NCBI RefSeq assembly: GCF_023115465.1 | Contig: NZ_CP096034.1 | Location: forward strand, 1,054,001 to 1,118,000 | DNA length: 64,000 nt | Source: Gottfriedia acidiceleris | GTDB taxonomy: Bacteria > Bacillota > Bacilli > Bacillales > Bacillaceae_G | Reading direction: 5' to 3' | In this document: positions 22,453 through 49,201 of the stretch, one piece after another | Numbering within the stretch: position 1 is the first letter of the stretch | Layout of the letters: each line of letters starts with the position of its first letter | Notes under the pieces: model-generated | Seen by the model: the letters and a program-made list of their open reading frames with translations, nothing else | Databases searched by the model: none | What the model was told of the DNA's origin: nothing | Translations under genes and position numbers: made by a program

Positions 22453-22484
22453 TTAACGTACCTTTTAGATTATGAACTTTGAAA
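22453..22484 (+). promoter_or_regulatory. Island element copy 1 (etfBA)
   Basis: First of seven 32-bp elements: TTAACGTACCTTTTAGAT, four bases, then AACTTTGAAA. It lies about 200 bases upstream of etfB. See the finding on the seven-copy motif for the alignment. Confidence 0.75.
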
Positions 22485-22681
22485 AACAATTATTTAAATT
22501 TATTATCTAATTAGTAGCCTATTATTCAGAATATTCCATCTAATTTTTTTTCAGCAAGTGGTAATAAAAAGAATTTAGGAATATAGAGCATTTAGTATTT
22601 ACCTTTTGGGAGAGTATTGATTGTGGGGACGTGTAAATAAAAAATTTACGTTTGGAATTAAAAAGAATAGGGGATGGGAAT

Positions 22682-23446
22682 ATGAACATTTTAGTTTTAG
22701 TGAAGCAGACTTTTGATACGGAAGAGAAAATTGTGATTCAGAACAATGTTGTTAGTGAAGAGGGAGTAAACTTCATTATCAATCCTTATGATGAATATGC
22801 AATTGAAGAAGCGATTAAACTGCGGGATGAACATGGTGGAATTGTAACCGTTATCACAGTAGGAACAGAACGCTCAGAAAGTGCACTGCGTACAGCACTA
22901 GCTATGGGAGCGGATAATGCAGTAATTGTGGAGAGCGAAGATTTTGAACTTGATGAATACATTACTGCAAAAATTCTTGCTGCAGTTATTAAAGAACGTG
23001 AATTTGATATTATTTTAGGTGGAAATGTAGCAGTAGACTATGGTTCTGGACAAATAGGGCCACGTCTGGCAGAAGAACTTAATATTGCACAAGTTACGAC
23101 GATTACTAAGCTCGAGATCAGCAATAATGAAGCTATAATCGAGCGGGATGTAGAAGGGGATAAAGAGATCATCCAAGTTTCTCTCCCTGTATTAATTACT
23201 GCCCAACAAGGATTAAATGAACCACGTTACCCATCGCTGCCTGGAATTATGAAAGCGAAGAAAAAGCCAATAGAGCGTATAGAATTAGATGATTTAGATA
23301 TTGAAGTTGAAGCTGAAGTAAAAACGGCGGTAATGGAAACCTTTTATCCAACGAAAAAGGGAGCAGGTCGTATTCTAACTGGTGATATCAATAATCAGGT
23401 AATGGAACTAGCATCATTACTTCGTAGGGAAGCAAAAGTAATTTAA
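22682..23446 (+). CDS. etfB: Electron transfer flavoprotein, beta subunit
   Basis: 254 residues. The ETF-beta fold begins MNILVLVKQTFDTEEKI and contains the AMGADNAVIVE and GNVAVDYGSGQIGPRLAEEL AMP/FAD-site segments. With EtfA it takes electrons from acyl-CoA dehydrogenases. Four such dehydrogenases are in this island, which suggests a dedicated ETF in addition to any housekeeping copy. The start at 22682 has an AGGGGATGGG site; an in-frame ATG at 22652 is less likely because the usual N terminus begins at 22682. Confidence 0.95.
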   Translation: MNILVLVKQTFDTEEKIVIQNNVVSEEGVNFIINPYDEYAIEEAIKLRDEHGGIVTVITVGTERSESALRTALAMGADNAVIVESEDFELDEYITAKILAAVIKEREFDIILGGNVAVDYGSGQIGPRLAEELNIAQVTTITKLEISNNEAIIERDVEGDKEIIQVSLPVLITAQQGLNEPRYPSLPGIMKAKKKPIERIELDDLDIEVEAEVKTAVMETFYPTKKGAGRILTGDINNQVMELASLLRREAKVI

Positions 23447-23468
23447 TAATCTAGGGGGAAGAAAGAAT

Positions 23469-24437
23469 ATGAGAAAAGTACTTGTACTAACAGAAGCTAA
23501 GGCTGGTAATTTAAGAAGTGTTTCACTTGAAGTATTGACGTCAGCAAGGCGTATTGCAGAAGGCGGAGAAATTATTGCTGTTGCGATTGGTAGTAACTCT
23601 ACTCATTATGCCAATATTTTAGGTAAACACGGAGCAAATAAAGTTTATATCATTAGCAACGAAAAATTGGATGTGTATACAACTGATGCATACGCTCAAG
23701 CGATGCGTCAAGTCATTGAAGATGTCGAGCCAGATGCAATTTTATTTCCTCATACGGCTATTGGGAAAGATCTTGCACCACGCATTGCTGCACGTTTTGG
23801 CCTTGGTCTTGTGTCAGATGTCATTGACGTACAGATTGAAGATGATGATGTAATTTTTACGCGTCCAATTTATTCAGGGAAAGCGTTTGAGAAAAAGAAA
23901 GCAGTTTCTAGTATTCCTTTTGCAACAGTCCGGCCGAATAATATTGCAGTAGAGAAAGCTGGAGGTACTATTGAGGTTGTGTGGTTTAATGTTGAAATTA
24001 ATGACGTACGTACAGTCGTCAAAGATGTTGTACGAAAGGCTACTGGAGGTGTAGATCTATCAGAAGCGAAAATTGTTATCTCTGGAGGACGTGGAGTCAA
24101 ATCTGAAGAAGGATTTCAGCCTCTCCTAGAGCTTGCGGAGGTTCTTGGTGGTGCAGTAGGTGCATCTCGTGGTGCATGTGATGCAGATTACTGTGATTAC
24201 TCTTTACAGATTGGTCAAACAGGTAAGGTCGTTACACCTGACTTGTATATTGCCTGTGGTATTTCAGGCGCGATACAGCATTTGGCTGGCATGTCGAACT
24301 CAAAGGTTGTTGTAGCGATAAATAAAGATCCTGAAGCTCCAATTTTTCAGGTTGCTGATTATGGCATCGTCGGTGATTTATTCGAAGTAGTTCCAATGCT
24401 TACGGAAGAATTCAAAAAAGTACTAGTAAACGCATAA
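23469..24437 (+). CDS. etfA: Electron transfer flavoprotein, alpha subunit
   Basis: 322 residues. The C-terminal FAD-binding half has the signature VISGGRGVKSEEGFQPL, GASRGACDADYC, QIGQTGKVVTPDLYIACGISGAIQH (broken here by the family's usual spacing) and AINKDPEAPIF. It starts 22 bases after etfB with GGGGGAAG, forming an etfBA operon. The downstream hairpin GGCATTCC / GGAGTGCC (24458-24487) has no adjacent T-run. Confidence 0.95.
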   Translation: MRKVLVLTEAKAGNLRSVSLEVLTSARRIAEGGEIIAVAIGSNSTHYANILGKHGANKVYIISNEKLDVYTTDAYAQAMRQVIEDVEPDAILFPHTAIGKDLAPRIAARFGLGLVSDVIDVQIEDDDVIFTRPIYSGKAFEKKKAVSSIPFATVRPNNIAVEKAGGTIEVVWFNVEINDVRTVVKDVVRKATGGVDLSEAKIVISGGRGVKSEEGFQPLLELAEVLGGAVGASRGACDADYCDYSLQIGQTGKVVTPDLYIACGISGAIQHLAGMSNSKVVVAINKDPEAPIFQVADYGIVGDLFEVVPMLTEEFKKVLVNA

Positions 24438-24490
24438 ATAAAAAAAATCATTCGTCAGGCATTCCTCCGAGTAATAAGGGGAGTGCCGTT

Positions 24491-24504
24491 TGAAATCGTT
24501 TACG
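24491..24504. promoter_or_regulatory. Possible CcpA cre site
   Basis: TGAAATCGTTTACG matches the cre consensus TGWAANCGNTNWCA at 10 of 11 defined positions. It sits between etfA and the Spo0E-like gene. Short consensus matches occur by chance, so this is tentative. Confidence 0.4.
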
Positions 24505-24746: not shown

Positions 24747-26369
24747 TTGATCATTTTAAAATACATCGTTAATCTATCGGTTTTTTCAACATTTGTTATC
24801 ATTCCATTAGTTATCCATTCTTTTTTCAATTATATACCAGTTAAAAAGGTTCGACGTTGGGCCGGTTTATATGCTGTTCTTTTTATAGTTATACTCGTAT
24901 TGTTATCCATTAACCAACTTGGTTATTCTTTTGATTTGCGAATTGCAATAGTCATTGTTGCTTTTTCTTATCTTGGACCAGTAACTGGATTAGTTACTGG
25001 ATACGTTGCTTTAGTTGCGAGACTTTATGAAAATGATATTTGGTTTGGTTCTATTTATGCTTGGACACTTCTAATGGTTGGATTTTTAGCTATTAATTTT
25101 TATTTTTCAAAACTCACAACGATAAAAAGAGTCCTAATTTTATTTTGTACTTATGCGTGTAGCTATTTGGTTATTGAATCTATTTTTTACAACATAAAAG
25201 AGCATCCTTTCATTCATTTTGAATATCTATTATTTGTTTGTTTAGGAGTTATAATTGCTATATTAATAATTGAGTCATATCTTAGACTGTATGAATTAAA
25301 TAGTAAACTTGAATATATGTATAAGAAAGTTGGAAAAAGTGAATTAAAGTACCGATTAATAGTAGAGAATACGGTGGACATGACGGTGGTGCTCAATAAA
25401 AGTATGTCTTTACTTTATTATTCGCCTTCTCATTTGGTGATATTAGGGTATGAAGAATCAGAACTGGAAGGTATTAAATTTCAATCTCTTATTCATCCTG
25501 ACGATTATAGTAATTTTCGAGATATGTTAAATGTCATGTTTCAAAATAAAAAAGCTCAATCGGTCATTTTTCGAATCCAAAATAAAAAAGGGGAATGGAT
25601 TGAATTAGAGTCCAGTTTAATGCCCGTCAAGAGGGAAGACGAATCAATTGAACATATTGTCGTAAATAGCAGAGATATCTCGGAACGAAGAAAAGTTGAA
25701 GAGAGTCTGTTGCAATCTGAAAAATTATCAATTGTCAGTGAATTAGCAGCCGGAGTAGCACATGAAATACGAAATCCTCTCACGACAATAAAGGGGTTTG
25801 TTCAACTTTATAAGAAAGAAAATAAATCTGTTGTATATAGTGACTTGCTACTAAATGAACTAGACCGAATTGAAGAAATCACCAGCGAGCTTCTTACTTT
25901 AGGAAAACCCCAATCATTTAAACGTCACATTATTAATGTACAAGAATTAATGGAAAATACACTTGAATTATTAACCTTACAGCTTGGCAATAATGCTATA
26001 CAATTTAAACTGAATGTGGAACACTCTTCCATTATGATTGCCTGTGAAAAGAACCAATTAAAACAAGTATTTCTTAATGTCCTTAAAAATGCGGTAGAAT
26101 CGATGGAAGCTGGTGGTGAAATTAATATTAATATAAGTCAAACTTCATGTAGCGAGTGTATCATTTCAATTCGAGATCAGGGGTGTGGCATTCCGGAAGA
26201 CCTACTTCCACGTTTAGGCGAGCCCTTTTACTCTTTAAAGGACAAAGGCACCGGACTAGGATTGATGGTCTGCCATAAAATTATAGAGCAACACAATGGT
26301 AAAATCACCTACTCTAGTAAAGTAAACGAGGGAACACTTATTGAGATTATCCTACCATTAGTAAGTTGA
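24747..26369 (+). CDS. KinB-like membrane histidine kinase with PAS domain
   Basis: About 540 residues. There are five to six membrane helices in the N-terminal 180 residues (5TM-Lyt-type, with SYLGPVTGLVTGYVALVARL), then a PAS domain (about 205-320, LSYYSPSHLVILGYEESELEGI-like), then HisKA with the phospho-His339 in GVAHEIRNPLTTIKGF, and an HATPase domain with N box NVLKNAVESM, G1 DQGCGI and G2 GTGLGL. The layout resembles sporulation phosphorelay kinases such as KinB. No response regulator is nearby, so Spo0F is a possible partner. The start is TTG at 24747, after GGCGGGA. Confidence 0.85.
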   Translation: MIILKYIVNLSVFSTFVIIPLVIHSFFNYIPVKKVRRWAGLYAVLFIVILVLLSINQLGYSFDLRIAIVIVAFSYLGPVTGLVTGYVALVARLYENDIWFGSIYAWTLLMVGFLAINFYFSKLTTIKRVLILFCTYACSYLVIESIFYNIKEHPFIHFEYLLFVCLGVIIAILIIESYLRLYELNSKLEYMYKKVGKSELKYRLIVENTVDMTVVLNKSMSLLYYSPSHLVILGYEESELEGIKFQSLIHPDDYSNFRDMLNVMFQNKKAQSVIFRIQNKKGEWIELESSLMPVKREDESIEHIVVNSRDISERRKVEESLLQSEKLSIVSELAAGVAHEIRNPLTTIKGFVQLYKKENKSVVYSDLLLNELDRIEEITSELLTLGKPQSFKRHIINVQELMENTLELLTLQLGNNAIQFKLNVEHSSIMIACEKNQLKQVFLNVLKNAVESMEAGGEININISQTSCSECIISIRDQGCGIPEDLLPRLGEPFYSLKDKGTGLGLMVCHKIIEQHNGKITYSSKVNEGTLIEIILPLVS

Positions 26370-27856: not shown

Positions 27857-28777
27857 TTATTGTTCCTTTTTTAAACTATTGACTTGAAGATTGAGTTCTT
27901 TCATAAACGCCTGGGAAGCAGCAGAATAATGTTGATTTTTTAAGCGAATGCAGTAATAGGACATTTTAGAATCTAATCCTAGAACAGGCTTTACAATAAT
28001 ATCTTCGCGTCTGTAAAATGGATCGAATTTAGCTGTTAATTCAGGCTCAAATGAGACAGCTAATCCCTCTGCAATAAAATACTTCCTTGTATCAGAATTT
28101 TGCGATTGAATTTGTATATTGAAATTATCATGTTCTCCAAATAATTGAGAAAAATATTTATCTTTACCGTTACTGTTTTTAAAAGATAGTGCAAGTGGTT
28201 GTTTTAAAATATCTTCAATGTTAATCTGATTTAATTTAGCCAAATTAGAATCTTTTCTAAAACAGATCATCATTCGGCTATCTAATAGATGTGTTGAAAT
28301 AAGCATCTGATTTTCTTTCCCAGATGGAAATGGGTTAAAGGTTAAACCTATATCAGCTTTGCCGTTTAAAACGTCCTTACGAACTTGACTAGGGCCTGTT
28401 TCTTTAATCTCAAGAGTTATTCCTGGGAATTTTGATTTTAGTTTTGCGGAAGCTTTTGGAATAATACCTTTACATAAACTAGTAACCGCTGAAATTGATA
28501 TAAGTCCCTCTATATCCGAAGAGTCACTTTTAGCCTCTAGTTTAAATTCTTCTATACTATTTAAAATCCGTTGCGCCTTTATTATTAGTCTTTTTCCAAT
28601 TTCGGTCGGCTCTAAGCCAGTTCTATAACGTTCAAATATCTTCACACCAAGTTCTTCCTCAAGACCACTAATTGCTAGACTTATACCAGGAGAAGATACA
28701 TAAAGCCGTTCAGACGTATTTGCAATAGAGCCGGTTTTTGCTATCTCAGTGATATATAATAGTTGCTCGATACGCAT
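27857..28777 (-). CDS. LysR-type regulator, copy 1
   Basis: 306 residues. An N-terminal winged helix-turn-helix (MRIEQLLYITEIAKTGSI, then RLYVSSPGISLAISGLEEELG) is followed by a LysR substrate-binding domain. Start choice: GGAGGA lies 4-9 bases before the ATG at 28777; an earlier in-frame ATG overlaps that site. It is divergent from the alcohol dehydrogenase gene, the classic arrangement for a LysR activator and its target. It is paralogous to the LysR protein at 46095 (clear similarity over the whole length), so the two may share sites. Confidence 0.92.
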   Translation of the reverse strand: MRIEQLLYITEIAKTGSIANTSERLYVSSPGISLAISGLEEELGVKIFERYRTGLEPTEIGKRLIIKAQRILNSIEEFKLEAKSDSSDIEGLISISAVTSLCKGIIPKASAKLKSKFPGITLEIKETGPSQVRKDVLNGKADIGLTFNPFPSGKENQMLISTHLLDSRMMICFRKDSNLAKLNQINIEDILKQPLALSFKNSNGKDKYFSQLFGEHDNFNIQIQSQNSDTRKYFIAEGLAVSFEPELTAKFDPFYRREDIIVKPVLGLDSKMSYYCIRLKNQHYSAASQAFMKELNLQVNSLKKEQ

Positions 28778-28970
28778 AGATTCCTCCATAGAATATAAAT
28801 ATCATATTTAATAATTTAATCTACTTTTATTTTAACCTTAAAAAATAGTTAATGAATTAAAGATTCTTAAAGGTACCATTTATTTTTTAAAATTTAAAAA
28901 AATAAGAAATGAAAATATGATAGATAAAATGAATAGTTTGAATATTTAAAATTTATTAGGGGTGATTTTA

Positions 28971-30020
28971 ATGAAAGCAGCTGTCTTAGAAGAATTTAAT
29001 AAACCGTTAGTAATAAAAAACGTTGCAGATCCGGTTCTTTCTGCAGATGGGGTTATTTTAAGACTAGAAGCTACAGGTGTTTGTCGTTCTGACTGGCATG
29101 CTTGGCAAGGACATTTAACTGCACCTACATCCGAGAAGCTTCCTCATATTTTAGGGCATGAAATGAGCGGTGTGATTGAAGAAACGGGAAAAAACATTAA
29201 AAAATTTAAAAAAGGTGACCGTGTTATTGTTCCGTTTAATCAAGGAGATGGAGTCTGCCCTTATTGTGTAGCCGGACGTCACAATATTTGTGATAATCGA
29301 AAATTAGTAGGGTTTGACTTTTATGGAGGATTTGCATCACATATCCATATTCCTAATGCTGACTTAAATTTATTTCATCTACCAGAAAATGTTAGTTTCA
29401 TAGACGCAAGTGCGATGGGTTGTCGTTTTATGACTGCTTATCATGGTGTTATGTCACAAGGGAAAATTAAAGCGGGCGATTGGGTTTCCATTTATGGTGC
29501 AGGAGGAGTTGGATTGTCTGCCATCCAAATTGCTGTGTCAGCAGGTGCGAATGTAATTGCTGTAGATATAGGGGACGATAAATTAGATCTGGCAAAAAAA
29601 TTTGGTGCAGTCGCTTCAATTAATAGCAAACGTGACGATGCGCCCCAAGCAATAAAGGAAATCACAAAAGGAGGTAGTAACCTCTCGATTGACGCATTAG
29701 GCATCCAAGACACTGTAATCGGATCCATTATGAGTCTGAAAAAAGGTGGTAGGCATGTTCAACTTGGTCTAAGTCCAAATCCAGGAGGAGGGATGACTCC
29801 TCTACCTTTAAATTTAATATTGGGATATGAACTTGAAATCATTGGTTCTGCTGGTATGCCTATGCCTGAATATTCTACTTTAATACGCATGGTCGAGATG
29901 GGCCAATTACAACCTGGTAAATTAGTCACAAAGGAAATCTCTTTAGAGGAAGTTAATCAAGCTTTTGAAGACATGAATAGTTTTTCTGGAACGGGAATGA
30001 CGGTGATCACTAAATTCTAA
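28971..30020 (+). CDS. Zinc-dependent alcohol dehydrogenase
   Basis: 349 residues, MDR superfamily. Catalytic zinc ligands are Cys in GVCRSDWHAW and the HEM of ILGHEMSGV. The structural-zinc lobe reads DGVCPYCVAGRHNIC, in which Asp takes the place of the first of the usual four cysteines. The NAD-binding motif is GAGGVGLSAIQIA, with an Asp at the end of the second strand (VIAVDIGDD), which favours NAD. It likely oxidises a primary or secondary alcohol, and it forms an operon with the aldehyde dehydrogenase 77 bases downstream. ATG at 28971 follows AGGGGTG. Confidence 0.9.
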   Translation: MKAAVLEEFNKPLVIKNVADPVLSADGVILRLEATGVCRSDWHAWQGHLTAPTSEKLPHILGHEMSGVIEETGKNIKKFKKGDRVIVPFNQGDGVCPYCVAGRHNICDNRKLVGFDFYGGFASHIHIPNADLNLFHLPENVSFIDASAMGCRFMTAYHGVMSQGKIKAGDWVSIYGAGGVGLSAIQIAVSAGANVIAVDIGDDKLDLAKKFGAVASINSKRDDAPQAIKEITKGGSNLSIDALGIQDTVIGSIMSLKKGGRHVQLGLSPNPGGGMTPLPLNLILGYELEIIGSAGMPMPEYSTLIRMVEMGQLQPGKLVTKEISLEEVNQAFEDMNSFSGTGMTVITKF

Positions 30021-30097
30021 ACTTTTAAGGATTAAGGAATGGTCACACATAGATTTTGATTGTTTTTAGCTTTATCTAAAAAAGAGGAGTGTAAAGA

Positions 30098-31552: not shown

Positions 31553-31560
31553 AAAAGAAA

Positions 31561-31597
31561 AAAGAAGATCAAACAATTTGTGTTTGATCTTCTTTTT
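31561..31597 (+). terminator. Terminator of the alcohol/aldehyde dehydrogenase operon
   Basis: Perfect 15-bp stem AAAGAAGATCAAACA / TGTTTGATCTTCTTT with a 5-base loop and a T-run, 9 bases after the stop codon. Confidence 0.95.
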
Positions 31598-31674
31598 TGA
31601 ATTCTAATCCATTACAAGTATCTGCTATTTAAATTCTATTAAGCATTATGGATATCCTTTTAGTTTAACTTTAC

Positions 31675-31706
31675 TTAACATACCTTTTAAATCTCAAACT
31701 TTTAAA
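31675..31706 (+). promoter_or_regulatory. Island element copy 2 (CoA-transferase operon)
   Basis: TTAACATACCTTTTAAAT, four bases, then AAACTTTTAAA; the closest copy to consensus. It holds two direct CTTTTAAAT repeats 15 bp apart. TCATTAATG follows 22 bases after AACTTT. It lies 122 bases upstream of the CoA-transferase start. Confidence 0.8.
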
Positions 31707-31827
31707 TATGAATAAATGAAACTATCATTAATGTAATGATTCTTATTATTGTGAATTTTTAAAAAATTAATTTATAAAGACTCTGTCATGGCATGTCTTT
31801 AAAAATCATATGGAAAGGAAGATTCCG

Positions 31828-33036: not shown

Positions 33037-33100
33037 GGTGATAGTTACCCTAAATACCTAAAATTCAATAAATAGTTTTTACTTAAAATGGGGTGGAAAT

Positions 33101-37021: not shown

Positions 37022-37087
37022 TAGATGATCTTGTTTAGTAAGCTATTTATTTTATATAAATATAAATTTATAGAGAGGAAGATTTGA

Positions 37088-37903: not shown

Positions 37904-37967
37904 TTTTTAACAAGTAAAATTAAGTGATTTTTAAAAGTTATTCATTATTTAAAAGAGGTGAATGAAA

Positions 37968-38420: not shown

Positions 38421-38450
38421 GATCGCCATTACAGAAAGGAGAAATGAAGG

Positions 38451-38858: not shown

Positions 38859-38937
38859 AATTTTGTCACTTCACTATCATTTTATTGCTTGCTCGAAATT
38901 TTTATTTAAAGTTACTACATTATTAGTTATTTAATCT

Positions 38938-39049
38938 AACTCCTTCTTCAGCTTACTCACCAGACTGTTGAAGGGGCAGAAGCAGTCAAGTAGATTTCTA
39001 GACTGTCCCTGTTCCTTCAAAAATTGGAAATATAGTTGGAGAAGGAGTT
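38938..39049 (+). other. Nested inverted repeats, possible structured RNA or large terminator
   Basis: In the 344-base gap between maoC and the flavin oxidase. Outer 10-bp stem AACTCCTTCT / AGAAGGAGTT, inside it TTGAAGG / CCTTCAA (38968-38974 with 39014-39020), CAGTC / GACTG, and TAG / CTA at the tip, all in nested order. Followed by TTTATTT. It may end the upstream operon or be a leader of the oxidase gene. Confidence 0.5.
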
Positions 39050-39202
39050 GTTTATTTAAATTGAATTATTTCAGACTGAAAAATTCAATCTCTAGAAGCT
39101 AATTACAATGATTTTGTAAAAAATTAAAACTAGTTTGTGAAGAAAGAAAAAGATTTAAAAAATTAAATCCAATACATTTCTTACACAGAGAGGATAATGA
39201 GC

Positions 39203-40543: not shown

Positions 40544-40677
40544 AATAATAGTTAGAAACTAACACAATAAAATAGAAGTGTTTAAACAAACCCCTCTATT
40601 TTTATGGAAATGTTCAACAAGGAGAGAATGACTCAAATTAACTTAAAACTTATGTATGATTCTAAGAGGTGATTTGA

Positions 40678-41613
40678 ATGACATTAGCTTATTTATTTCT
40701 TTTATTTGTACAATTTTTATATGCAATTCCGTTGGTAATAAGTCAGGTTGCACTTGAACAAATTCCAATATTTTTATTTTTAGAAATAAGCTTTATCGCC
40801 GCTTTTGTTTTCTTACTTCCACTTGCTTTGATGAAAGAAAAAGTAAATTGGACAAATCTAGGTAAAAAAAATATCGGGAAATTATTATTACAGGGGCTAT
40901 TATTTAATGTTGTTTTTAATATCTTTTTGTTATTAGGAATAAGTCATACAAGTGCAACTGATACAGGAATCATTACAGGTACATCACCTGCACTTATACT
41001 AATCCTTTCATATTTTTTACTTCGTGAACGTATAAAGTTGCTTTCCATCCTTGCTATTTTTTTAGCAATAACAGGTGTTGTTCTCCAATCTTTTATAAGT
41101 TTAGGAGAAAGTCCAAAGACTTCTTTATTAGGGGATTTCTTTGTCATTTTAGCCATACTTACTCAATCCTTTTTTGTTATTTTTTCAAAAAAATTTGCAG
41201 CAGATGTACCTCCGATTACAACTGCTACTTTTATAATGCTTGTAGGAGTAATATTTTTTATACCTTTAGGTATTATGGATGCACATAATTTTAAATGGGA
41301 TTCAGTTTCAGCATCTAACTGGTGGATTGATATCATATATGGAATACCAGGAACTGCACTCCCTCTAATCCTTTATTTCTATGCTATTAGAAGAGTACCC
41401 GCAAGTACGGTTGGTATTTTTTCAGCGCTTCTTCCAATTTTAACGACGGTAACTGCCGTTCTAGCACTAGGAGAACCCATAACAGTAGCTCTGTTCGTTT
41501 CTCTTTGCTGTGTTGTGCTATCCATTGTTCTAGCTGTATTAGTAGGGAGAAACAATAAATCTGATGTTTATTTAAATCAAACTAATAATGATCTAAATGA
41601 AGTTAAATATTAA
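40678..41613 (+). CDS. EamA/DMT-family transporter
   Basis: 311 residues with ten predicted membrane helices in two EamA repeats (about 1-140 and 150-290; the second ends VFVSLCCVVLSIVLAVLVG-like). Drug/metabolite transporters of this family usually export small metabolites. Its place in the island suggests it moves a pathway metabolite or amine, but nothing in the sequence names one. GAGGTG upstream. No island element lies in front of it. Confidence 0.88.
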   Translation: MTLAYLFLLFVQFLYAIPLVISQVALEQIPIFLFLEISFIAAFVFLLPLALMKEKVNWTNLGKKNIGKLLLQGLLFNVVFNIFLLLGISHTSATDTGIITGTSPALILILSYFLLRERIKLLSILAIFLAITGVVLQSFISLGESPKTSLLGDFFVILAILTQSFFVIFSKKFAADVPPITTATFIMLVGVIFFIPLGIMDAHNFKWDSVSASNWWIDIIYGIPGTALPLILYFYAIRRVPASTVGIFSALLPILTTVTAVLALGEPITVALFVSLCCVVLSIVLAVLVGRNNKSDVYLNQTNNDLNEVKY

Positions 41614-41793
41614 GTGCCCAAATGCATAATTAAAAGTAATAGCAAGAGATGATTTTTTATTTGGAGGGTTGTATGTTTTAAGTTGTTTTTACATTCGCTA
41701 ATTCTAAATTCTGAGTGATACTCAATTTAATACTTAAGTTACTTTTTCTCTTTTTTTATTTTTAATAATGATTTTGTAAAGTGTGGTGTCAAT

Positions 41794-42108
41794 ATGAACA
41801 TAGAGGATTATGTTAAAGAAAAACATCCAAACGTATTTGAAGAGCATAATCGATTTATACGAAATTTTGTACCTTCAATTGGGTCTGAATTAGTTTCTTT
41901 AGTAGATAGTTTTGGAGGGCTTTCAGGTCAGCCTTTGGAGGTAACTGGGTATAGTGCTTTAGGATGTGGTATGGATGTATTCATAGAGTTGAAAAATGTT
42001 GCAACCGGGGAGCGCTATATGTGCCCAGTTAAAAAGTGGGATAATAAGGTCAAATTGATTAAGGGAGATTATATAGATGTAAGTTTTGTGAAATTCTATG
42101 ACGAATAA
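41794..42108 (+). CDS. Hypothetical protein, 104 residues
   Basis: I do not recognise this protein. It is soluble and mildly acidic, with an N-terminal helical part (MNIEDYVKEKHPNVFEEHNRF) and a C-terminal part that looks beta-rich (VFIELKNVATGERYMCPVKKW). There is no signal peptide and no metal or cofactor motif. It has a weak ribosome site (GTGTGG) and its own terminator at 42149. It may be a passenger gene in the island. Confidence 0.6.
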   Translation: MNIEDYVKEKHPNVFEEHNRFIRNFVPSIGSELVSLVDSFGGLSGQPLEVTGYSALGCGMDVFIELKNVATGERYMCPVKKWDNKVKLIKGDYIDVSFVKFYDE

Positions 42109-42148
42109 TTGTTTTAAAGTCATTAAAAGATAAAAAATTTACAAAAAG

Positions 42149-42187
42149 AAGCAACTTCAAATGGAATAATTGAGTTGCTTTTTTTTG
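42149..42187 (+). terminator. Terminator after the hypothetical gene
   Basis: AAGCAACT / AGTTGCTT, a 16-base loop and an 8-base T-run. Confidence 0.8.
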
Positions 42188-42220
42188 TTGATGCAGGCAT
42201 TAAATGTACTTTAAATTTAC

Positions 42221-42252
42221 TTAACGTACGTTATAAATTCTAAACTTTATTA
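42221..42252 (+). promoter_or_regulatory. Island element copy 4 (hydroxyacyl-CoA dehydrogenase operon)
   Basis: TTAACGTACGTTATAAAT, four bases, then AACTTTATTA. It is one of the more divergent copies. It lies 178 bases upstream of the dehydrogenase start. Confidence 0.7.
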
Positions 42253-42430
42253 TTGGTATTTAGGAATTTATGATAAATTTAAATATTCAATTTATTATGT
42301 GAACTAGAGTAATAGTTTTGAAGGATACAAAAGGTATAGGTATCAGATCTACTCTAAGATTTAATCTGAAAAGTAAAAATGCAAATATATCATTAAAAGC
42401 AAGGAGAATGGAAAAGAAAGGAGCGTAAAT

Positions 42431-43279
42431 ATGGAGAAAATGGCAGTAATAGGATCTGGTGTTATGGGGAGAGGTATATCTTATGCATCTGCACTTGGGG
42501 GCTTTCGAGTAAGCTTAAATGATGTCAGCCAAGAAAATTTGAATAAAGCCAAATTATATATTGAGACTGAAATGAAGAAGAGTGTAGAAAAAGGGATTCT
42601 GAGTAGAGAACAGGTTGCTAGAGCATTACAAAGAATTGAATATACTACAGATTTAGAAGTTGCTGCCGGAGATGCTGATATTGTAATTGAAGCCGTCTTT
42701 GAATTAATGGAGTTGAAAGTAGAAATCTTTAAAAAATTAGACAAGATATGTCCGGAGTATACGATTCTTGCGACTAATACATCAACAATGAGCCCGACAG
42801 AAATAGCGGCACAAACTTTAAGACCTGAAAAATGCATTGCAATGCATTTTTTTAATCCAGTTCATAAAATGAAGTTGATTGAAATTATCAGAGGGCTTGA
42901 GACCTCTGATGAGACGATGGCAAAAGTAAAGGAAATAAGTCAAAAATTAGGCAAGGAAATAGTTGAAGTGAATGAATTCCCGGGATTTGTTACAAGTCGG
43001 ATGAACTGTTTAATAGGAAATGAGGCTATGAATCTACTAATGGAGGGGGTAGCCTCTGCCTGTGACATTGATCGTGCCATGAAGCTTGGACTTAATCATC
43101 CAATGGGTCCGTTAGAACTTGCTGACTTGGTTGGACTCGATACCAGACTTCGAAATATGGAATACCTTTACAAAAATTTAGGAGAAAAATACCGACCATG
43201 TCCATTGTTAATCAAATACGTGAAAGCGGGACGTTTAGGCCGAAAGTCTGGACAGGGATTTTATAAATATAATAGTTAA
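42431..43279 (+). CDS. 3-hydroxyacyl-CoA (3-hydroxybutyryl-CoA) dehydrogenase
   Basis: 282 residues, the length of single-domain HBD enzymes. NAD motif GSGVMGRGIS, IEAVFE, NTSTMSPTEIA, the catalytic His in HFFNPVHKMKLIEI and FPGFVTSRMN are all present, and the C-terminal dimerisation domain is complete. It oxidises L-3-hydroxyacyl-CoA with NAD. In front of an acyl-CoA dehydrogenase and a thiolase, it repeats the gene content of the B. subtilis mmgABC operon in another order. Ribosome site AAAGGAGCG. Confidence 0.93.
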   Translation: MEKMAVIGSGVMGRGISYASALGGFRVSLNDVSQENLNKAKLYIETEMKKSVEKGILSREQVARALQRIEYTTDLEVAAGDADIVIEAVFELMELKVEIFKKLDKICPEYTILATNTSTMSPTEIAAQTLRPEKCIAMHFFNPVHKMKLIEIIRGLETSDETMAKVKEISQKLGKEIVEVNEFPGFVTSRMNCLIGNEAMNLLMEGVASACDIDRAMKLGLNHPMGPLELADLVGLDTRLRNMEYLYKNLGEKYRPCPLLIKYVKAGRLGRKSGQGFYKYNS

Positions 43280-43311
43280 CTTTTTTAACTTTTTTATTCC
43301 CTGCTAGTTTA

Positions 43312-43517
43312 CTCAGAGTGGCCTAGGAGGCAAGTGAAAGAATATGCACAGAAACTGAGCCAAAAAAGCCTTAAAGATTTCTGCTTAACGAGGATGCGAG
43401 GATGTAGCTATCACTGCGAAGATATTAAAATGGAAACCGAACTTTATTTAGTAAAGATTTCATAGTTCATTTTAATAGCCTCTGAGGAAAGCTCGAAGGA
43501 ACTCAAGCCTTTTTTGG
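43312..43517. repeat. Non-coding stretch with interlocked inverted repeats
   Basis: The 281-base gap between the dehydrogenase and the next gene holds no ORF with a start site. It has CTCAGAGTGGC (43312) facing GCCTCTGAG (43478), and CCAAAAAAGCCTT (43360) facing AAGCCTTTTTTGG (43505), plus an inner AT-rich hairpin. The two long pairs cross rather than nest. Confidence 0.45.
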
Positions 43518-43560
43518 AAAAAAGCAGCCACAATTTCAGGAGAAATAAGGAGGAGCGACA

Positions 43561-44709
43561 ATGGATTTTACATTACCTGAAGATATTCAACTTTTAAAGA
43601 AAGCAGTACATAATTTTGTTCAAGGTGAAGTTGAAAAGGTTGCAATGGAAATAGAGGAAAAAGATAAAATTCCTGGCCATATTTTAGCTTCATCAAAAGA
43701 AATGGGTTTATTCGGTTTAAGTATTCCTGAAGAGTATGGCGGCCTTGGTCTTAATATGGTAGGGAAATGTGCGATTTATGAAGAACTTGGGAAAACCCAT
43801 AATGGCTATACAACTTTAATTGGTGCACATACAGGAATTGGATCGGTTGGAATTGTGGAGCTTGGAACAGAGGAACAAAAAAAGAAATATTTACCAAATA
43901 TGGCAAGTGGTGAATGGATTGGCGCCTTTGCTTTAACAGAACCAAGCGCGGGGTCCAATGCTGCTAATTTAAAAACAAAGGCCGAAAAAAAGGGAGACAA
44001 ATATATTTTAAATGGTTCAAAGCACTATATAACCAATGCGGTTGAAGGTCATATTTTTACGGTTATGGCGGTTACTGATCCAAGTAAAGGGGCAAAAGGA
44101 ATAACTTCGTTTATTGTGGAAAAAGATTTTCCTGGATTTTATGTCGGTTCTGTTGAGAAAAAAATGGGTCTACGTGGCTCGCATTCAGCTGAACTTTTCT
44201 TCGAAAATTGTGAGGTCCCTGCAGAAAATGTCCTTGGAGAGGAAGGACAAGGGTATATTAATGCATTGAAAATCTTGGCGAACGGGCGTGCAGGACTAGC
44301 GGCTAGAAACTTGGGGTCTTGTGAGAAACTACTCGAGTTAAGTATGGATTATGCAACTCAGAGGATCCAGTTTAAAAAGTCCATCTTTGAACAACAAGCT
44401 ATTCAGCATATGTTAGCAGATATGGCAATGGAAATAGAGCTTCTAAGGTCGATGACTTATCGAGTTGCATGGATGACAGACCAAGGCATGCGTGTCGTAA
44501 AAGAGGCGGCTATGGCTAAGCTTTACGGGTCAGAAGTATATAATCGGGTGGCAGATTTGGCTGTCCAAATTCATGCGGGAATTGGTTATATGAAAGACTA
44601 TCCAATTGAAAGATTCTATCGGGATGCACGTATTACAAAAATATATGAAGGAACAAGCCAAATACAGAAAAACATCATTGCGGGTGAACTAAAGCGTGAG
44701 TATTTATAA
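43561..44709 (+). CDS. Acyl-CoA dehydrogenase (short/medium-chain type)
   Basis: 382 residues. Full ACAD fold with IGAFALTEPSAGSNAAN, GSKHYITNA, and the catalytic Glu in IYEGTSQIQKNII. This matches the classical butyryl/short-chain branch where Glu sits in YEGTSQIQ. It forms FADH2 and passes electrons to EtfAB. It starts after AAGGAGGAG and is 15 bases ahead of the thiolase, so the two are one transcription unit. Confidence 0.93.
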   Translation: MDFTLPEDIQLLKKAVHNFVQGEVEKVAMEIEEKDKIPGHILASSKEMGLFGLSIPEEYGGLGLNMVGKCAIYEELGKTHNGYTTLIGAHTGIGSVGIVELGTEEQKKKYLPNMASGEWIGAFALTEPSAGSNAANLKTKAEKKGDKYILNGSKHYITNAVEGHIFTVMAVTDPSKGAKGITSFIVEKDFPGFYVGSVEKKMGLRGSHSAELFFENCEVPAENVLGEEGQGYINALKILANGRAGLAARNLGSCEKLLELSMDYATQRIQFKKSIFEQQAIQHMLADMAMEIELLRSMTYRVAWMTDQGMRVVKEAAMAKLYGSEVYNRVADLAVQIHAGIGYMKDYPIERFYRDARITKIYEGTSQIQKNIIAGELKREYL

Positions 44710-44724
44710 AGAAGGGGTGTAAGG

Positions 44725-45918
44725 ATGAGGAATGCGGTTATTATAGACGGTGCCCGCACAGCAATCGGCAAAATGGGTGGGACACTTAAAGATATTGATG
44801 TAGATTTCCTATCAGAAAAAGTAATGCGGGAAGCAATTAAGAGAAGTAAAATCCAAGGAGCAGATGTTGAAGAGGTAGTTTGGGGGCACTCTAAACAAAC
44901 TTCTGATGTCCCTAATCTTGCTCGACTAGCCGCACTTAGAGCGGAACTTCCTATTGAAGTTCCTGGATATACGGTTCACCGTCAATGCGGATCAGGTCTC
45001 CAAGCAATCAATAACGCAGCCCAGCAAATAATCTGCGGACTTTCAGACATCGTTTTGGCGGGCGGAGCAGAGAGTATGAGTAATGCTCCGTTTTATTTAA
45101 GAAAAGCCCGTTATGGATACGAGGCTGGTAATGCGGAACTTGTGGATTCCAATACGGAAAGCCAGCCTAGGTCACAGCCAATTGAAGTTTATGGGCATTT
45201 GACGATGGGATTAACTGCTGAAAATCTTGCAGACAAATATAGTATTAGTCGGCAGGAGCAGGATCACTTTTCAATGGAGAGTCAGCAAAAGGCTTTTGAT
45301 GCGATTGAGGCTGGGAAATTTAAAAATGAGATTGTTCCATATGAAATTAAAATGAGAAAAGGGAATATTCTTTTTGATTCAGACGAACATCCTCGATTAA
45401 CTAGTTTTGAAAAACTTTCTGGATTAAAGCCCATTTTCAAAAAGGGAGGCACGGTTACAGCAGGTAACTCGAGCGGGAGAAATGATGGTGCAGCCGCACT
45501 AGTCATGATGTCGGAAGAAGAAGCAAAAAAGCGAGAGCTAGCACCGCGTCTCCGCATCTTATCTCAAGCAGCAGTGGGTGTGTCACCAGAGATTATGGGA
45601 ATTGGTCCTGTTCCAGCAACAATTAAAGCACTTAAGCTTGCAGGATTGACCATGGATGATATCGACTTAATTGAATTGAACGAGGCTTTTGCCGCGCAAA
45701 CAATAGCAGTTGTAAAAGAGTTGAAAATCGATGCTAAAAAATTAAATGTGAATGGTGGAGCGATTGCATTAGGACACCCAATTGGTGGTACGGGAGCTAT
45801 TTTAACAATAAAAATAATGAACGAACTTGAGCGACGAGGTGGACGCTACGGATTAATTACTGCTTGTATTGGTGGTGGTCAAGGAATTGCCACAATTGTT
45901 GAAAATTTAAGGGTGTAA
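44725..45918 (+). CDS. Acetyl-CoA acetyltransferase-type thiolase
   Basis: 397 residues. Nucleophilic Cys88 in HRQCGSGLQA, ELNEAFAAQ, NGGAIALGHPIGGTGA with the catalytic His, and the second Cys in ACIGGGQG. This is a complete degradative or biosynthetic thiolase that splits 3-ketoacyl-CoA into acetyl-CoA and a shortened acyl-CoA. AAGGGGTG site. A bidirectional hairpin ends the unit before the convergent lysR copy 2. Confidence 0.95.
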   Translation: MRNAVIIDGARTAIGKMGGTLKDIDVDFLSEKVMREAIKRSKIQGADVEEVVWGHSKQTSDVPNLARLAALRAELPIEVPGYTVHRQCGSGLQAINNAAQQIICGLSDIVLAGGAESMSNAPFYLRKARYGYEAGNAELVDSNTESQPRSQPIEVYGHLTMGLTAENLADKYSISRQEQDHFSMESQQKAFDAIEAGKFKNEIVPYEIKMRKGNILFDSDEHPRLTSFEKLSGLKPIFKKGGTVTAGNSSGRNDGAAALVMMSEEEAKKRELAPRLRILSQAAVGVSPEIMGIGPVPATIKALKLAGLTMDDIDLIELNEAFAAQTIAVVKELKIDAKKLNVNGGAIALGHPIGGTGAILTIKIMNELERRGGRYGLITACIGGGQGIATIVENLRV

Positions 45919-45970
45919 GTTTTAGGGGTATTAATTTATAAGTGATATTTTAAGAACTACAATACAAAAA

Positions 45971-45999
45971 GTTAAGCCACTATTATAGAGTGGCTTAAC
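45971..45999. terminator. Hairpin between thiolase and lysR copy 2
   Basis: Perfect 11-bp stem GTTAAGCCACT / AGTGGCTTAAC with a 7-base loop. The T tract on + is interrupted (TAAATTTTT). Confidence 0.8.
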
Positions 46000-46011
46000 T
46001 AAATTTTTAAC

Positions 46012-46056
46012 AAAAATAAAAGAAGAAAATTCACCTTTAGTGATTTACCTTCTTTT
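46012..46056 (-). terminator. Terminator of lysR copy 2
   Basis: AGAAG..AATTCAC / GTGATTT..CTTCT stem. On the minus strand it runs into TTTTATTTTT. Confidence 0.7.
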
Positions 46057-46094
46057 GGGTTTTATAAGTAAATTGTTTATTAAATTTTTTTAAA

Positions 46095-47012
46095 TTAGTC
46101 TTTGAAATTTTCAGCCTGAAGTTTAAGTTCTTTCAAAAATTCTTTAGCTGCAGCAGAAAAAAATTTACTTTTTAATCGAATACAATAATAAGAAAAGTTA
46201 TTATTTATTCCTAATACAGGCTTTACGATAATATCTTCACTTTGATAAAAGGGATCGGATTTAATTGATAGTGAACTTTCGAATCCAATTGCCAATCCCT
46301 GTGAAATAAAATGCTTTTTTGTTTCAGTTTGTTGTGATTGAACCAAAACATTAAAGTTAAGATTGCTATTTTCTCTGAATACCATAGAGTGAAACTTTCT
46401 TCTATCAAAATCACTTAAATTTGCCGCTAATGGGTATTGCTGTATATCCTCTATTGTAAGATTGTCTTTACTTGCTAATTCAGAATCTTTTCTAAAACAA
46501 AGCAACCATGGATTATCAATAATATGTGTTGTAATTAAGAGTTGATTTTCTTCTCGTAGACCGGAAGGATAACAGATTAAACCTATATCCGCATCACCAT
46601 TCAAAACGTCTTTTCGTACTTGTGAGGAAGATGCATCTTTAATTTCGGGATTTATTCCTGGAAATTTTGCTTTAACTTCAGCAAATGTTTTAGGGATCAG
46701 GCTCCTGCTAATGGCAGGGTCAGCAGAGATAGTTAGAGAACCTGTAATTTGAGAAGCATTAACCTGTGATTCTTGTCTTAATTCCTCTATATTATTTAAA
46801 ATCTTCTGTGCTTTAATTATTAGTTTTTTTCCAGTTTCAGTGGGCTCTAATCCTGTTCTGGAACGTTCAAATATTTTCACGCCAAGTTCTTCCTCTAAGC
46901 TGCTGATTGCAAGGCTTATACTTGGTGAAGATACGTAAAGTCTTTGAGCAGTTGTCGCTATAGAGCCAGTTTTCGCTATTTCAGTAATGTATAAAAATTG
47001 TTCGATTCGCAA
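46095..47012 (-). CDS. LysR-type regulator, copy 2
   Basis: 305 residues from TTG at 47012, preceded on the minus strand by GGGGTGG. The helix-turn-helix part (MRIEQFLYITEIAKTGSIA and RLYVSSPSISLAISSLEEELG) is nearly the same as in the LysR protein at 27857, while the effector domains differ more. This suggests shared DNA sites but different or overlapping inducers. Island element copies 5 and 6 lie 81 and 260 bases upstream of its start, on the other strand. Confidence 0.93.
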   Translation of the reverse strand: MRIEQFLYITEIAKTGSIATTAQRLYVSSPSISLAISSLEEELGVKIFERSRTGLEPTETGKKLIIKAQKILNNIEELRQESQVNASQITGSLTISADPAISRSLIPKTFAEVKAKFPGINPEIKDASSSQVRKDVLNGDADIGLICYPSGLREENQLLITTHIIDNPWLLCFRKDSELASKDNLTIEDIQQYPLAANLSDFDRRKFHSMVFRENSNLNFNVLVQSQQTETKKHFISQGLAIGFESSLSIKSDPFYQSEDIIVKPVLGINNNFSYYCIRLKSKFFSAAAKEFLKELKLQAENFKD

Positions 47013-47093
47013 AGTGCCACCCCTGTCAACTGACTTTAATAAAGTAAATTTTTAGATTCTCAATCATTCTAATAATCTCTTATTACAAATTTA

Positions 47094-47125
47094 TTAACAT
47101 ACCTTTTAATTTCAAAACATTAAAA
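47094..47125 (+). promoter_or_regulatory. Island element copy 5 (no gene directly downstream)
   Basis: TTAACATACCTTTTAATT, four bases, then AACATTAAAA. It faces a 65-base stretch that ends in a strong terminator. It may drive a small RNA, or control the divergent lysR copy 2, or both. Confidence 0.7.
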
Positions 47126-47144
47126 AAAGTATATTATAAGAATA

Positions 47145-47230
47145 TTCAAAATGTAAAGGGTTTCATCACTCTATTTGAGGGGCTTAAAAATAAAAGGAGT
47201 ATCGAAAATTTATTCGGTATTCCTTTTTTA
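47145..47230 (+). ncRNA. Candidate small RNA between element copies 5 and 6
   Basis: Between the -10-like AT-rich part after copy 5 (TATTATAAGAATATTC) and a terminator of 14 bp with two G-U pairs (AAAAGGAGTATCGA / TCGGTATTCCTTTT, 47192-47227, plus T-run). There is no ORF with a ribosome site. The 5' end is a guess from the spacing in the other copies. The expected length is about 80 bases. Confidence 0.4.
47192..47230 (+). terminator. Strong terminator between element copies 5 and 6
   Basis: 14-bp stem with two wobble pairs, 8-base loop and TTTTTT. No coding gene lies just upstream on this strand. Confidence 0.85.
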
Positions 47231-47272
47231 TGTCGAGAATGATTGTTTAACTAACAGACTATTACTTTTTAT

Positions 47273-47304
47273 TTAACTTACCTTTAAATATCTAAAATTT
47301 TAAA
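47273..47304 (+). promoter_or_regulatory. Island element copy 6 (citryl-CoA lyase-like gene)
   Basis: TTAACTTACCTTTAAATA, four bases, then AAATTTTAAA. It lies 77 bases upstream of the citrate-synthase-fold gene. Confidence 0.75.
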
Positions 47305-47381
47305 AGCTAACCAATAAAATTATGATGAGAATAAAGATTCATACTATTTTGAAATTTTAAATTTAAAAGAGGAGACTGAGA

Positions 47382-48170
47382 ATGAAATTTCAAACAAAAG
47401 TCGGGATGTCTAAACCTGAAGCAATCTATGTACATGGTTATAATTTGACGGAAGATTTAATAGGAAATATCACATTGGTTGATATGGCGTTTATAGGTGC
47501 AACGCATCGACTGCCTACCTTTGAGGAATCTAAAATGCTCAATGCATGCATGGTTGCAGTTTGTGAACATGGTTTTACTCCTAGTTCCATTTCTGCTCGT
47601 CTTACCTATTTAGGAGCCCCTGAAGCTGTACAAGCCGCAGTTGCAGCAGGTCTTTTGGGAGCAGGTTCCGTTTACCTTGGAGCAATGGAAAATACGGCGC
47701 AAATGCTCCAAGAAGGGTGGGAAAAGTACGGAGATAATCAAGATGTTGAAAGCATTGCTGCAAGTATTATCGAAGAACGGAAAGTAAGAAAATTACAAGT
47801 GGCGGGATTTGGACATCCCATCCATAAGCCAGTAGATCCACGTACAAAAAAGTTATTTGCACTAGCAAAAGAGTTAGGTTTAACCGGAAAACATATCGCA
47901 TTAATGAAAGAAGTTCATCGACAAATGAGTAAAGAAAAAGGAAGACAAATGACTTTAAATGCAGCGGGAGCAATCGGTGCAATTCTATCGGATATGAATT
48001 TACACTTTAGCGTTGTAAAATCTTTTGCAGTAGCATCTCGAGCAGTCGGATTAATTGCCCATATTGTAGAAGAAATAGAAGTAGGCCGAAAAGATAGTAT
48101 GGCTCAAAAACTTTATGATTATATTGAAGAAAACACGCTATATACAAATAACACCGATGCTATGAAATAA
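47382..48170 (+). CDS. Small citrate-synthase-fold protein (citryl-CoA lyase-like)
   Basis: 262 residues, far shorter than citrate synthase (about 370-430). It keeps the citrate synthase landmarks VCEHGFTPSS, GSVYLGAMENTAQML, VAGFGHPIHKPVDPR (the acyl-CoA-side His) and the late SRAVGLIAHIVEE. Proteins like this are annotated as citryl-CoA lyases and lack the large-domain part that condenses with oxaloacetate. It probably makes or cleaves a beta-hydroxyacyl-CoA, in keeping with the CoA-transferase and ligase nearby. GAGGAG site; element copy 6 is upstream. Confidence 0.75.
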   Translation: MKFQTKVGMSKPEAIYVHGYNLTEDLIGNITLVDMAFIGATHRLPTFEESKMLNACMVAVCEHGFTPSSISARLTYLGAPEAVQAAVAAGLLGAGSVYLGAMENTAQMLQEGWEKYGDNQDVESIAASIIEERKVRKLQVAGFGHPIHKPVDPRTKKLFALAKELGLTGKHIALMKEVHRQMSKEKGRQMTLNAAGAIGAILSDMNLHFSVVKSFAVASRAVGLIAHIVEEIEVGRKDSMAQKLYDYIEENTLYTNNTDAMK

Positions 48171-48331
48171 GAGATTAAACTTGTTTGAACAATAATGCAA
48201 CTTTAGGAAATTAACAGTTTTTGATAATTTAATAGATTTATTGAAAAAGTACTGAAAGCTATAAAGAGTAAATGAGTCCAAGAAATTGAAGAATGCTTTA
48301 GTGTATCGGTCAAAGTATAGGAGGATAAAAT

Positions 48332-49075
48332 ATGAAATTACAAGGTAAGGTTGCTATTGTAACTGGTTCCGGCAAAGGGATTGGCAAGGAAATTGTACAA
48401 AAATTTGTAAAAGAAGGAGCATTCATAACTGTAACTGATTTGAATAAGCAAACATGTGAGGAGACAGCTAATGAGATCATTCAAAGTGGTGGGAAGGCTA
48501 TCTCAGTGGCAGGAGATGTATCTAAAGCAGAGGATGCTAGAAATATAGTTGAAAAGACAATGGAAGCTTATGGTAAGGTTGATATCCTTGTGAACAATGC
48601 AGGAATTCTTAAAGATGTATTAATTAAAGACATGGAAGAAGATGACTGGGATAAAGTGATCGATGTTTGCCTAAAAGGTGCTTTTCTGTGCTCAAAATAT
48701 GTTTCAAAATATATGATGGAACAAAATTACGGCAAAATTATTAATATTTCATCGAGAGCTTATCTAGGAAATCCGGGTCAATCTAACTACTCCTCTGCAA
48801 AAGCAGGAATTGTCGGCTTGACACGCTCTTTAGCGAAAGAACTAGGAAAATTCAATATAAATGTAAATGCAGTTGCACCTGGTTTAATTGAGACAGATGC
48901 GCTAAGAAGTCATCCAAAATATGAAAAAATTAAAGAACTTCAAAAGAAAGATACACCAATTAAGAGAATTGGATTACCTGAGGATGTAGCGAACGCTGTT
49001 TTGTTTTTCTCCTCCGAGGATTCAGCATATATTACTGGAGATATTCTACACGTTTCTGGAGGGAGGTTTGGATAA
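48332..49075 (+). CDS. FabG-like SDR dehydrogenase
   Basis: 247 residues, classical SDR. TGSGKGIGKE, NNAGI, catalytic Ser in NISSRAY, YSSAK motif, and the PG-type loop VAPGLIETD are seen. The dehydrogenase or reductase acts on a 3-oxo/3-hydroxyacyl substrate. It is only distantly related to the SDR pair at 37088 and 49371. AGGAGG site, 161 bases after the citryl-lyase-like gene; a terminator follows, so the two may share the copy-6 promoter. Confidence 0.9.
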   Translation: MKLQGKVAIVTGSGKGIGKEIVQKFVKEGAFITVTDLNKQTCEETANEIIQSGGKAISVAGDVSKAEDARNIVEKTMEAYGKVDILVNNAGILKDVLIKDMEEDDWDKVIDVCLKGAFLCSKYVSKYMMEQNYGKIINISSRAYLGNPGQSNYSSAKAGIVGLTRSLAKELGKFNINVNAVAPGLIETDALRSHPKYEKIKELQKKDTPIKRIGLPEDVANAVLFFSSEDSAYITGDILHVSGGRFG

Positions 49076-49115
49076 GTAACGTTTGAAAGAAGTTATGATT
49101 AATTACGCTCAAATT

Positions 49116-49141
49116 AAGAGAGTCCAAGGGCTCTCTTTTTC
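49116..49141 (+). terminator. Terminator after the FabG-like gene
   Basis: AAGAGAGTCC / GGGCTCTCTT hairpin with a 2-base loop and a T-run. Confidence 0.85.
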
Positions 49142-49169
49142 TCTAGAAAATACTTGTCTTTAATTTTGC

Positions 49170-49201
49170 TTAACGTGTCTTTTAAATTGTTAACTTTTAA
49201 A
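49170..49201 (+). promoter_or_regulatory. Island element copy 7 (SDR copy 2 and acyl-CoA dehydrogenase genes)
   Basis: TTAACGTGTCTTTTAAAT, four bases, then AACTTTTAAA. TTATTAATATAAAG follows 23 bases later, identical to the bases after copy 3. It lies about 170 bases upstream of SDR copy 2. Confidence 0.78.

Follow-up and report, generated by a model that had tools for sequence, protein, structure and literature searches.

An operator-promoter-like element repeated in an acyl-CoA catabolic island of Gottfriedia acidiceleris and its candidate LysR-type readers

Results

Eight copies of one element in the island

A 64,000-bp stretch of the Gottfriedia acidiceleris genome (the window; C1:1054001-1118000 of a 4,690,333-bp contig) holds an island of acyl-CoA genes at 22317-53353, and within this island a 32-bp block of nearly constant sequence recurs between the genes, twice beside a gene for a LysR-type regulator. 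A first-pass annotation had listed seven such blocks, all on the + strand, and their gap-free alignment was confirmed; none of the seven lies within a listed open reading frame (ORF) of at least 100 amino acids, so that their intergenic placement also stands. All seven are real, but an eighth, weaker copy at 28868 had been overlooked, which sits between lysR1 and an alcohol dehydrogenase gene. A matrix built from the seven blocks scored those blocks at 32.5-40.0, the eighth copy at 21.7 and the rest of the window at no more than 15.2, and the consensus, with up to three mismatches allowed, matched at five places in the window and at none in each of 100 dinucleotide shuffles.

The copies are numbered here from left to right, and each is given with its E-value under a sequence-only model (R1) that was built from 19 sites in the window and in four relatives' loci (L020-L023). 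The genes named behind each copy are its predicted targets, all on the + strand, and their grouping into shared transcripts is inferred. Copy 1 (22441-22520; block 22453-22484; TATTAT at 22501-22506; E 1.6e-9) lies before etfB and etfA (22652-24437). Copy 2 (28856-28935; block 28868-28899; TATGAT at 28916-28921; E 9.4e-8) lies between the divergent lysR1 and genes for a zinc alcohol dehydrogenase and an aldehyde dehydrogenase (28962-31552). Copy 3 (31663-31742; block 31675-31706; TATCAT at 31723-31728; E 9.4e-12) precedes genes for a type III CoA-transferase, an enoyl-CoA hydratase and an AMP-forming ligase (31810-35608), and copy 4 (35712-35791; block 35724-35755; TATTAT at 35772-35777; E 2.8e-13) precedes an SCP-x-like thiolase, an SDR and two MaoC-type hydratase ORFs (35819-38858), a group that is conserved in all five other regions compared. 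Copy 5 (42209-42288; block 42221-42252; TATGAT at 42269-42274; E 5.1e-9) is followed by genes for a 3-hydroxyacyl-CoA dehydrogenase, an acyl-CoA dehydrogenase and a thiolase (42431-45918). Copy 6 (47082-47161; block 47094-47125; E 3.9e-8) is divergent to lysR2 and carries no TATNAT hexamer, and copy 7 (47261-47340; block 47273-47304; TATGAT at 47321-47326; E 6.0e-11) stands between copy 6 and the next genes, which encode a citryl-CoA-lyase-like protein and an SDR (47382-49075). Copy 6 therefore looks like a binding site retained for lysR2 whose rightward promoter may no longer be needed. Copy 8 (49158-49237; block 49170-49201; TATTAT at 49219-49224, with the spacing longer by one base; E 4.7e-11) precedes a second SDR copy and two acyl-CoA dehydrogenases (49371-52914).

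The first-pass annotation had named the genes directly behind its blocks as etfB, the type III CoA-transferase, the thiolase, the 3-hydroxyacyl-CoA dehydrogenase, the citryl-CoA-lyase-like gene (behind two copies) and the SDR, and these calls hold; the best NCBIfam model for the thiolase at 35819, "lipid-transfer protein", fits its SCP-x assignment. The gene content suggests, as far as general pathway knowledge goes, that branched or cyclic compounds are broken down here through a peroxisome-like beta-oxidation. The product of 47382-48170 is a short citrate-synthase-like protein that scores above the NCBIfam cut-off for the citryl-CoA lyase subfamily NF004868. Its relatives are found in Bacillota and, at a greater distance, in Proteobacteria, Chloroflexi and an actinobacterium. 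Hairpins were also considered as boundaries of the transcription units. A terminator-like hairpin on the + strand (49116-49137) was found by a terminator scan directly before copy 8, and another is visible in the sequence before copy 1; the hairpin before copy 3 (31558-31598) is on the - strand. The scan returned 12 hairpins against 9.9 in shuffles (standard deviation 3.5), and because it is no richer than shuffled sequence, little weight is placed on hairpins and their use as boundaries was rejected.

The island separates lonB from lonA by about 31 kb in the window. In 10 of 13 genomes of the genus (the 13 including the window's own) the two genes lie side by side, with about 280-470 bp between them; in the window's genome and in G010 no lonB end lies within 1.5 kb before lonA, and the contig of one further genome ends there. 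Judged from this gene order, the island is a genomic insertion between lonB and lonA.

The element is confined to the island within the genome

R1 was run against the whole 4.69-Mb genome of the window, scoring the best 150 of 6961 first-look candidates. The eight island copies were recovered at E 2.8e-13 to 9.4e-8 and the next match had E 0.013, a gap of five orders of magnitude. With only eight strong matches, all of them in the island, the hundreds of similar genomic sites that the first-pass annotation had named as evidence against its proposal were not seen. One pattern match at 3585367-3585398 (- strand; R1 E 0.085) was set aside as a chance coding match, lying antisense inside a 203-amino-acid reading frame that is presumably gerPC-like; it recurs, with one base changed, in four genomes of the same genus.

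Anatomy of the element

The window's copies were aligned with those of the relatives described below, giving 38 sites. Two matrix matches (G151 136205, score 15.2; G151b 8771, score 16.9), a one-base-shifted duplicate at 49171, eight near-duplicate copies in G010 and two copies in G793 that were found later are excluded from this set, and one site that is counted, G151b 1888, is weak (R1 E 0.009). Across the 38 sites, conservation runs from about 12 bases before the block (CATTAATATTTAC) through the 32-bp block itself (TTAACGTACCTTTTAATTTCTAAACTTTAAAA) to position 34, counted from the block's first base. Past position 34 a TATNAT hexamer is conserved at positions 49-54, beginning 16 bp after the block ends, and weaker conservation continues to TAAAGATTC around positions 60-68. 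The element is a putative compound promoter of about 68 bp with the 32-bp block as its core: a TTAA-N7-TTAA dyad comes first, the block follows, and a hexamer resembling TTTWAA, at the -35 place, is separated by 17 bp from TATNAT. All 38 sites are intergenic against lists of ORFs of at least 100 amino acids (at least 90 in G659 and G683).

TATNAT is found exactly at position 49 in 32 of the 38 sites and shifted by one base in two more, against about 1% per site after shuffling. An AT box had been noted before; a -10-like hexamer at a fixed distance does exist, but TATNAT starts slightly nearer to the block and overlaps the box that had been named. At the hexamer lying 17 bp before TATNAT, most sites have TTT and then A or T, and only two to four of six bases agree with TTGACA, a poor match that would suit an activator-dependent promoter. 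TTAAC, which had been called invariant, is indeed present in all seven of the blocks first listed, but it is not a general rule, its C at position 5 occurring in 27 of the 38 sites.

Dyad symmetry was scanned as 4-N7-4 arms at 97 centres in 36 sites, G683, which is nearly identical to G659, being omitted from these counts. The top-ranked centre was -3, corresponding to an inferred promoter coordinate of -64, where arm complementarity was 0.85 compared to a mean of 0.34 (standard deviation 0.14), a T-N11-A pair was present in 97% of the sites and the arms were perfect in 17 of the 36. This dyad, the best of LysR type, is found immediately before the 32-bp block and displaces the organising feature previously proposed, a pair of direct CTTTTAAA repeats 15 bp apart; these repeats can be seen in the seven blocks, but the two stretches differ over the 38 sites (ACCTTTTAA versus AACTTTAAA). 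Around the inferred transcription start, TAAAGATTC is found about 60-87 bases after the block start (for example, L021:5418-5445), at a distance from TATNAT that varies by one or two bases. An inverted repeat at this start, AAGATTC-N10-GAATCTT, to which TAAAGATTC is extended in some sites, is striking in a few of them and was rejected as a general feature, as five or fewer of 60 shuffles did as well in only 5 of the 38 sites.

LysR proteins accompany the element

Both proposed readers are encoded on the - strand of the island, lysR1 at 27857-28789 and lysR2 at 46095-47012, and their products are 59% identical. Each protein has an N-terminal HTH_1 domain and a LysR substrate-binding domain (LysR_substrate) above the Pfam gathering scores, and these two are the only proteins of the window's island with a recognised DNA-binding domain. 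The recognition helices of LysR1 and LysR2 are nearly the same, and the two probably share one operator. The solved structures nearest to LysR2 are CysB (1al3, E 2.5e-20), OxyR (4x6g) and a Rubisco operon regulator (5y2v), and LysR2 stays below the curated cut-off of every one of its 10 listed NCBIfam models. No plasmid record was found with a LysR protein of at least 60% identity (700 records match, all below 60%, the best at 36%).

Relatives of both LysR proteins, at 57-74% identity, are present in all five other element-bearing regions compared. The element and the LysR protein were then searched for separately in an order-level and a class-level sample, which overlap and both include the window's own genome; in searches of this size the filters are stricter and scoring is limited to a few top candidates from each genome. 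In the order-level sample the element (E at most 1e-4) was found in 3 of 397 genomes (G000, G006 and G010), and a search for the LysR protein (E at most 1e-85) returned exactly these three. In the class-level sample the LysR protein (E at most 1e-75) was found in 3 of 398 genomes (G000, G659 and G683), and the element, again, in the same three. The genus of G659 has the element and the LysR protein each in 2 of 26 genomes, the identical two. The LysR protein occurs in 2 of 61 genomes of the genus of Neobacillus niacini, one of them G793, and part of this genus was covered by the element search. G659, G683 and G793 were found through the LysR protein first and then shown to carry the element, 71-78 bp from lysR; G793 has its copy at 71 bp and a second one in the cluster. 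All 12 LysR genes of this subfamily, from eight genomes, are divergent from a copy that lies 58-177 bp from the first aligned methionine. Five genomes that possess the enzyme gene (G152-G156) had neither a subfamily LysR at E 1e-30 nor an element match better than E 0.0026. The earlier suggestion that the LysR paralogues are the readers is strongly supported by this one-to-one co-occurrence of element and LysR subfamily in the samples searched, together with the divergent copy at 12 of 12 genes.

The element in related clusters

The citryl-CoA-lyase-like gene, used as a query, returned 41 loci from other genomes. It was thus through an enzyme gene, rather than through the element, that the clusters of Cytobacillus horneckiae (L021), Bacillus sp. 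AFS088145 (L022; genome G006) and N. niacini (L023) were obtained. The seven-block matrix alone matched 10 places in these three clusters, at scores of 21.5-37.6, with nothing else there above 10.2; scanning relatives, as the first-pass annotation had advised, thus recovered the same element in all three species. With R1, C. horneckiae has 9 copies, N. niacini 15 (13 in the cluster and 2 on a second contig, one weak at E 0.009) and G006 2. No copy at E 0.01 or better was found in L024-L028 and L036, where the enzyme gene is present, or in 31 further loci; L024 comes from C. horneckiae as well, as a second locus of that genome whose citryl-CoA-lyase-like gene is 66% identical.

Copies in the relatives also stand before MFS transporters followed by alkyl-sulfatase-like metallo-lactamases, and before an esterase-like hydrolase followed by a flavin monooxygenase. 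The second contig of N. niacini (L097; C103) carries two weaker copies beside genes that resemble those for the alcohol dehydrogenase, SDR and acyl-CoA dehydrogenase of the island at 66-84%, and these genes are possible further members of the regulon outside the main cluster.

Discussion

Taken together, these data point with good confidence to the repeated block as the operator-promoter of a LysR-type activator regulon serving a horizontally acquired island for the catabolism of acyl-CoA compounds, probably branched or alicyclic ones, and the evidence favours the local regulon that the first-pass annotation had envisaged. In the mechanism proposed, a LysR tetramer would hold the upstream dyad, centred at about -64, as its recognition site, and its activation site would be the block, contacted as far as the -35 place. 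The inducer is probably an intermediate of the pathway; by shifting the tetramer it would allow sigma-A RNA polymerase to fire each transcription unit of the island, and the copy divergent from each lysR would also autoregulate that lysR.

Several observations weigh against this interpretation. The promoter coordinates rest on taking TATNAT as the -10 hexamer, and 4 of the 38 sites, copy 6 among them, lack TATNAT both at its place and up to two bases to either side. When 31000-50500 was scanned for sigma-70 promoters in general, 72 promoter-like sites were obtained compared to 69.8 in shuffles, and only two of the six copies in that interval are among the sigma-70 sites listed (60 of the 72). 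A second dyad (centre 8) also scores high, a symmetry score that counts the core bases leaves centre -3 outside its 12 best, and the element is AT-rich, with many other T-Nk-A pairs frequent in it; the assignment of the dyad to -64 is good but not certain. A - strand copy in C. horneckiae (156150; L091:15151-15205) has no gene of at least 100 amino acids behind it for about 2 kb, and it may serve a small gene or RNA, or it may be a relic; four other copies are 369-730 bp from the next gene of that size. The island also encodes a 104-amino-acid ORF (41794) that has no Pfam family match. Finally, several of the enzymes co-occur with the element too, so co-occurrence alone is no proof that LysR reads it.

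It is improbable, in our judgement, that the element is read by another DNA-binding protein encoded elsewhere, or by a response regulator paired with the island's PAS sensor histidine kinase (24747-26369), with LysR merely nearby. The kinase does lack a response regulator among its island neighbours, and a kinase 65% identical to it is encoded near the G793 cluster; however, the fetched regions of G149, G151, G006, G659 and G683 each carry the element but no counterpart of the kinase. Absent from five of the six other element-bearing regions compared and present only in G793, the kinase partner was rejected as the reader. Any regulator encoded elsewhere would need a distribution identical to that of the LysR subfamily, and the position of the dyad and the divergent lysR genes both fit LysR practice.

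The conserved 17-bp spacing between TATNAT and the TTT-plus-A/T hexamer is also what would be expected if the block were simply a strong AT-rich sigma-A promoter spread by copying, with no specific activator. This is very improbable: conservation well upstream of the -35 place (C9, C10 and the TTAA dyad) is as strong as in the hexamers, copy 6 keeps its block while lacking TATNAT, and the element was not found in 394 of the 397 order-sample genomes or 395 of the 398 class-sample genomes. Moreover, the sequence is kept in G659 and G683, whose cluster regions have a GC content of about 46%, so that the AT-rich element there is not mere composition. Slightly less credible still, in our view, is that the copies lack any regulatory function and represent a mobile or repetitive element or remnants of gene duplication. 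The many copies within one island, and the duplicated SDR and acyl-CoA dehydrogenase genes there, are compatible with such an origin, but similarity fades outside about -13 to +82 of the block, and the intergenic copies precede non-homologous genes, all but one pointing at a gene within 730 bp.

A more elaborate form of the LysR regulon can be put forward only tentatively and is probably not correct as a whole, namely that the operator-promoter of about 68 bp is a portable cassette of which two LysR paralogues read 8-15 copies, and that a lineage with the recognition-helix motif SQAIR is diverging together with CTGAAC operators, splitting the regulon in two within one island. Two LysR proteins (C. 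horneckiae a and N. niacini b) have an SQAIR helix, and the sites adjacent to them read CTGAAC, whereas the lysR-adjacent sites of SLAIS proteins have A at that place (CTAAAC). CTGAAC is found at L091:13228-13282 and at L096:7626-7680, 9274-9328 and 14869-14923, which include two neighbours in N. niacini. Both SQAIR proteins fall into one group (94/99), so the link between SQAIR and CTGAAC amounts to one evolutionary event. TGAAC occurs in six sites in all, and one of these, at 22453 in the window, belongs to a genome without an SQAIR protein and is a counter-example.

LysR-type activators are described (PMC4834489) as using a palindromic T-N11-A site near -65, with contacts past the -35 box and a regulator gene that is divergent; PMC11739112 describes recognition and activation sites, with inducer binding causing a shift between two activation sites. 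The element resembles the classical promoters of that general model, including those of ThnR and the tetralin genes (PMC4834489), in the T-N11-A site inferred near -65, the divergent lysR, the catabolic targets and the conserved stretch down to the -35 place, seen here as sequence conservation. The first-pass annotation's statement that no known Bacillus operator has this form was therefore too strong, the layout being that of a classical LysR-type promoter. Unlike such promoters, one near-constant operator-promoter is present here 8 times in a single island (N. niacini has 15 copies, of which a second contig holds two), conservation runs through the activation region and the -10 hexamer, and two paralogous regulators appear to share the operator. 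The LysR proteins with solved structures, of the CysB, OxyR and CbbR types, are the nearest solved sequences to LysR2, yet only distant relatives. Another parallel is the LysR-type regulator CutR of Mycobacterium sp. JC1, for which PMC12609908 reports identical promoter sequences before two target operons, with cutR divergent from one and the site at -60; the same paper gives CutR a T-N12-A site, a dimer and no recognised activation site, in contrast to the extended conserved activation region seen here. The proteins are thus of a known kind, LysR-type regulators, with a promoter of LysR-type layout, and the many near-constant copies in one island are less usual. No paper on this regulon in Bacillus-like bacteria was found in a limited search of open-licence papers.

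The same element and LysR regulator are found together in several Bacillus-like genera, which gives this group of bacteria a concrete, testable pair of regulator and operator. From the element, regulon membership can be predicted genome by genome, and with it the genes of one pathway, including genes outside the main N. niacini cluster. The dozens of operator variants, each accompanied by its own regulators, form a natural series that would be useful for the study of sequence recognition by LysR proteins and for the building of inducible promoters.

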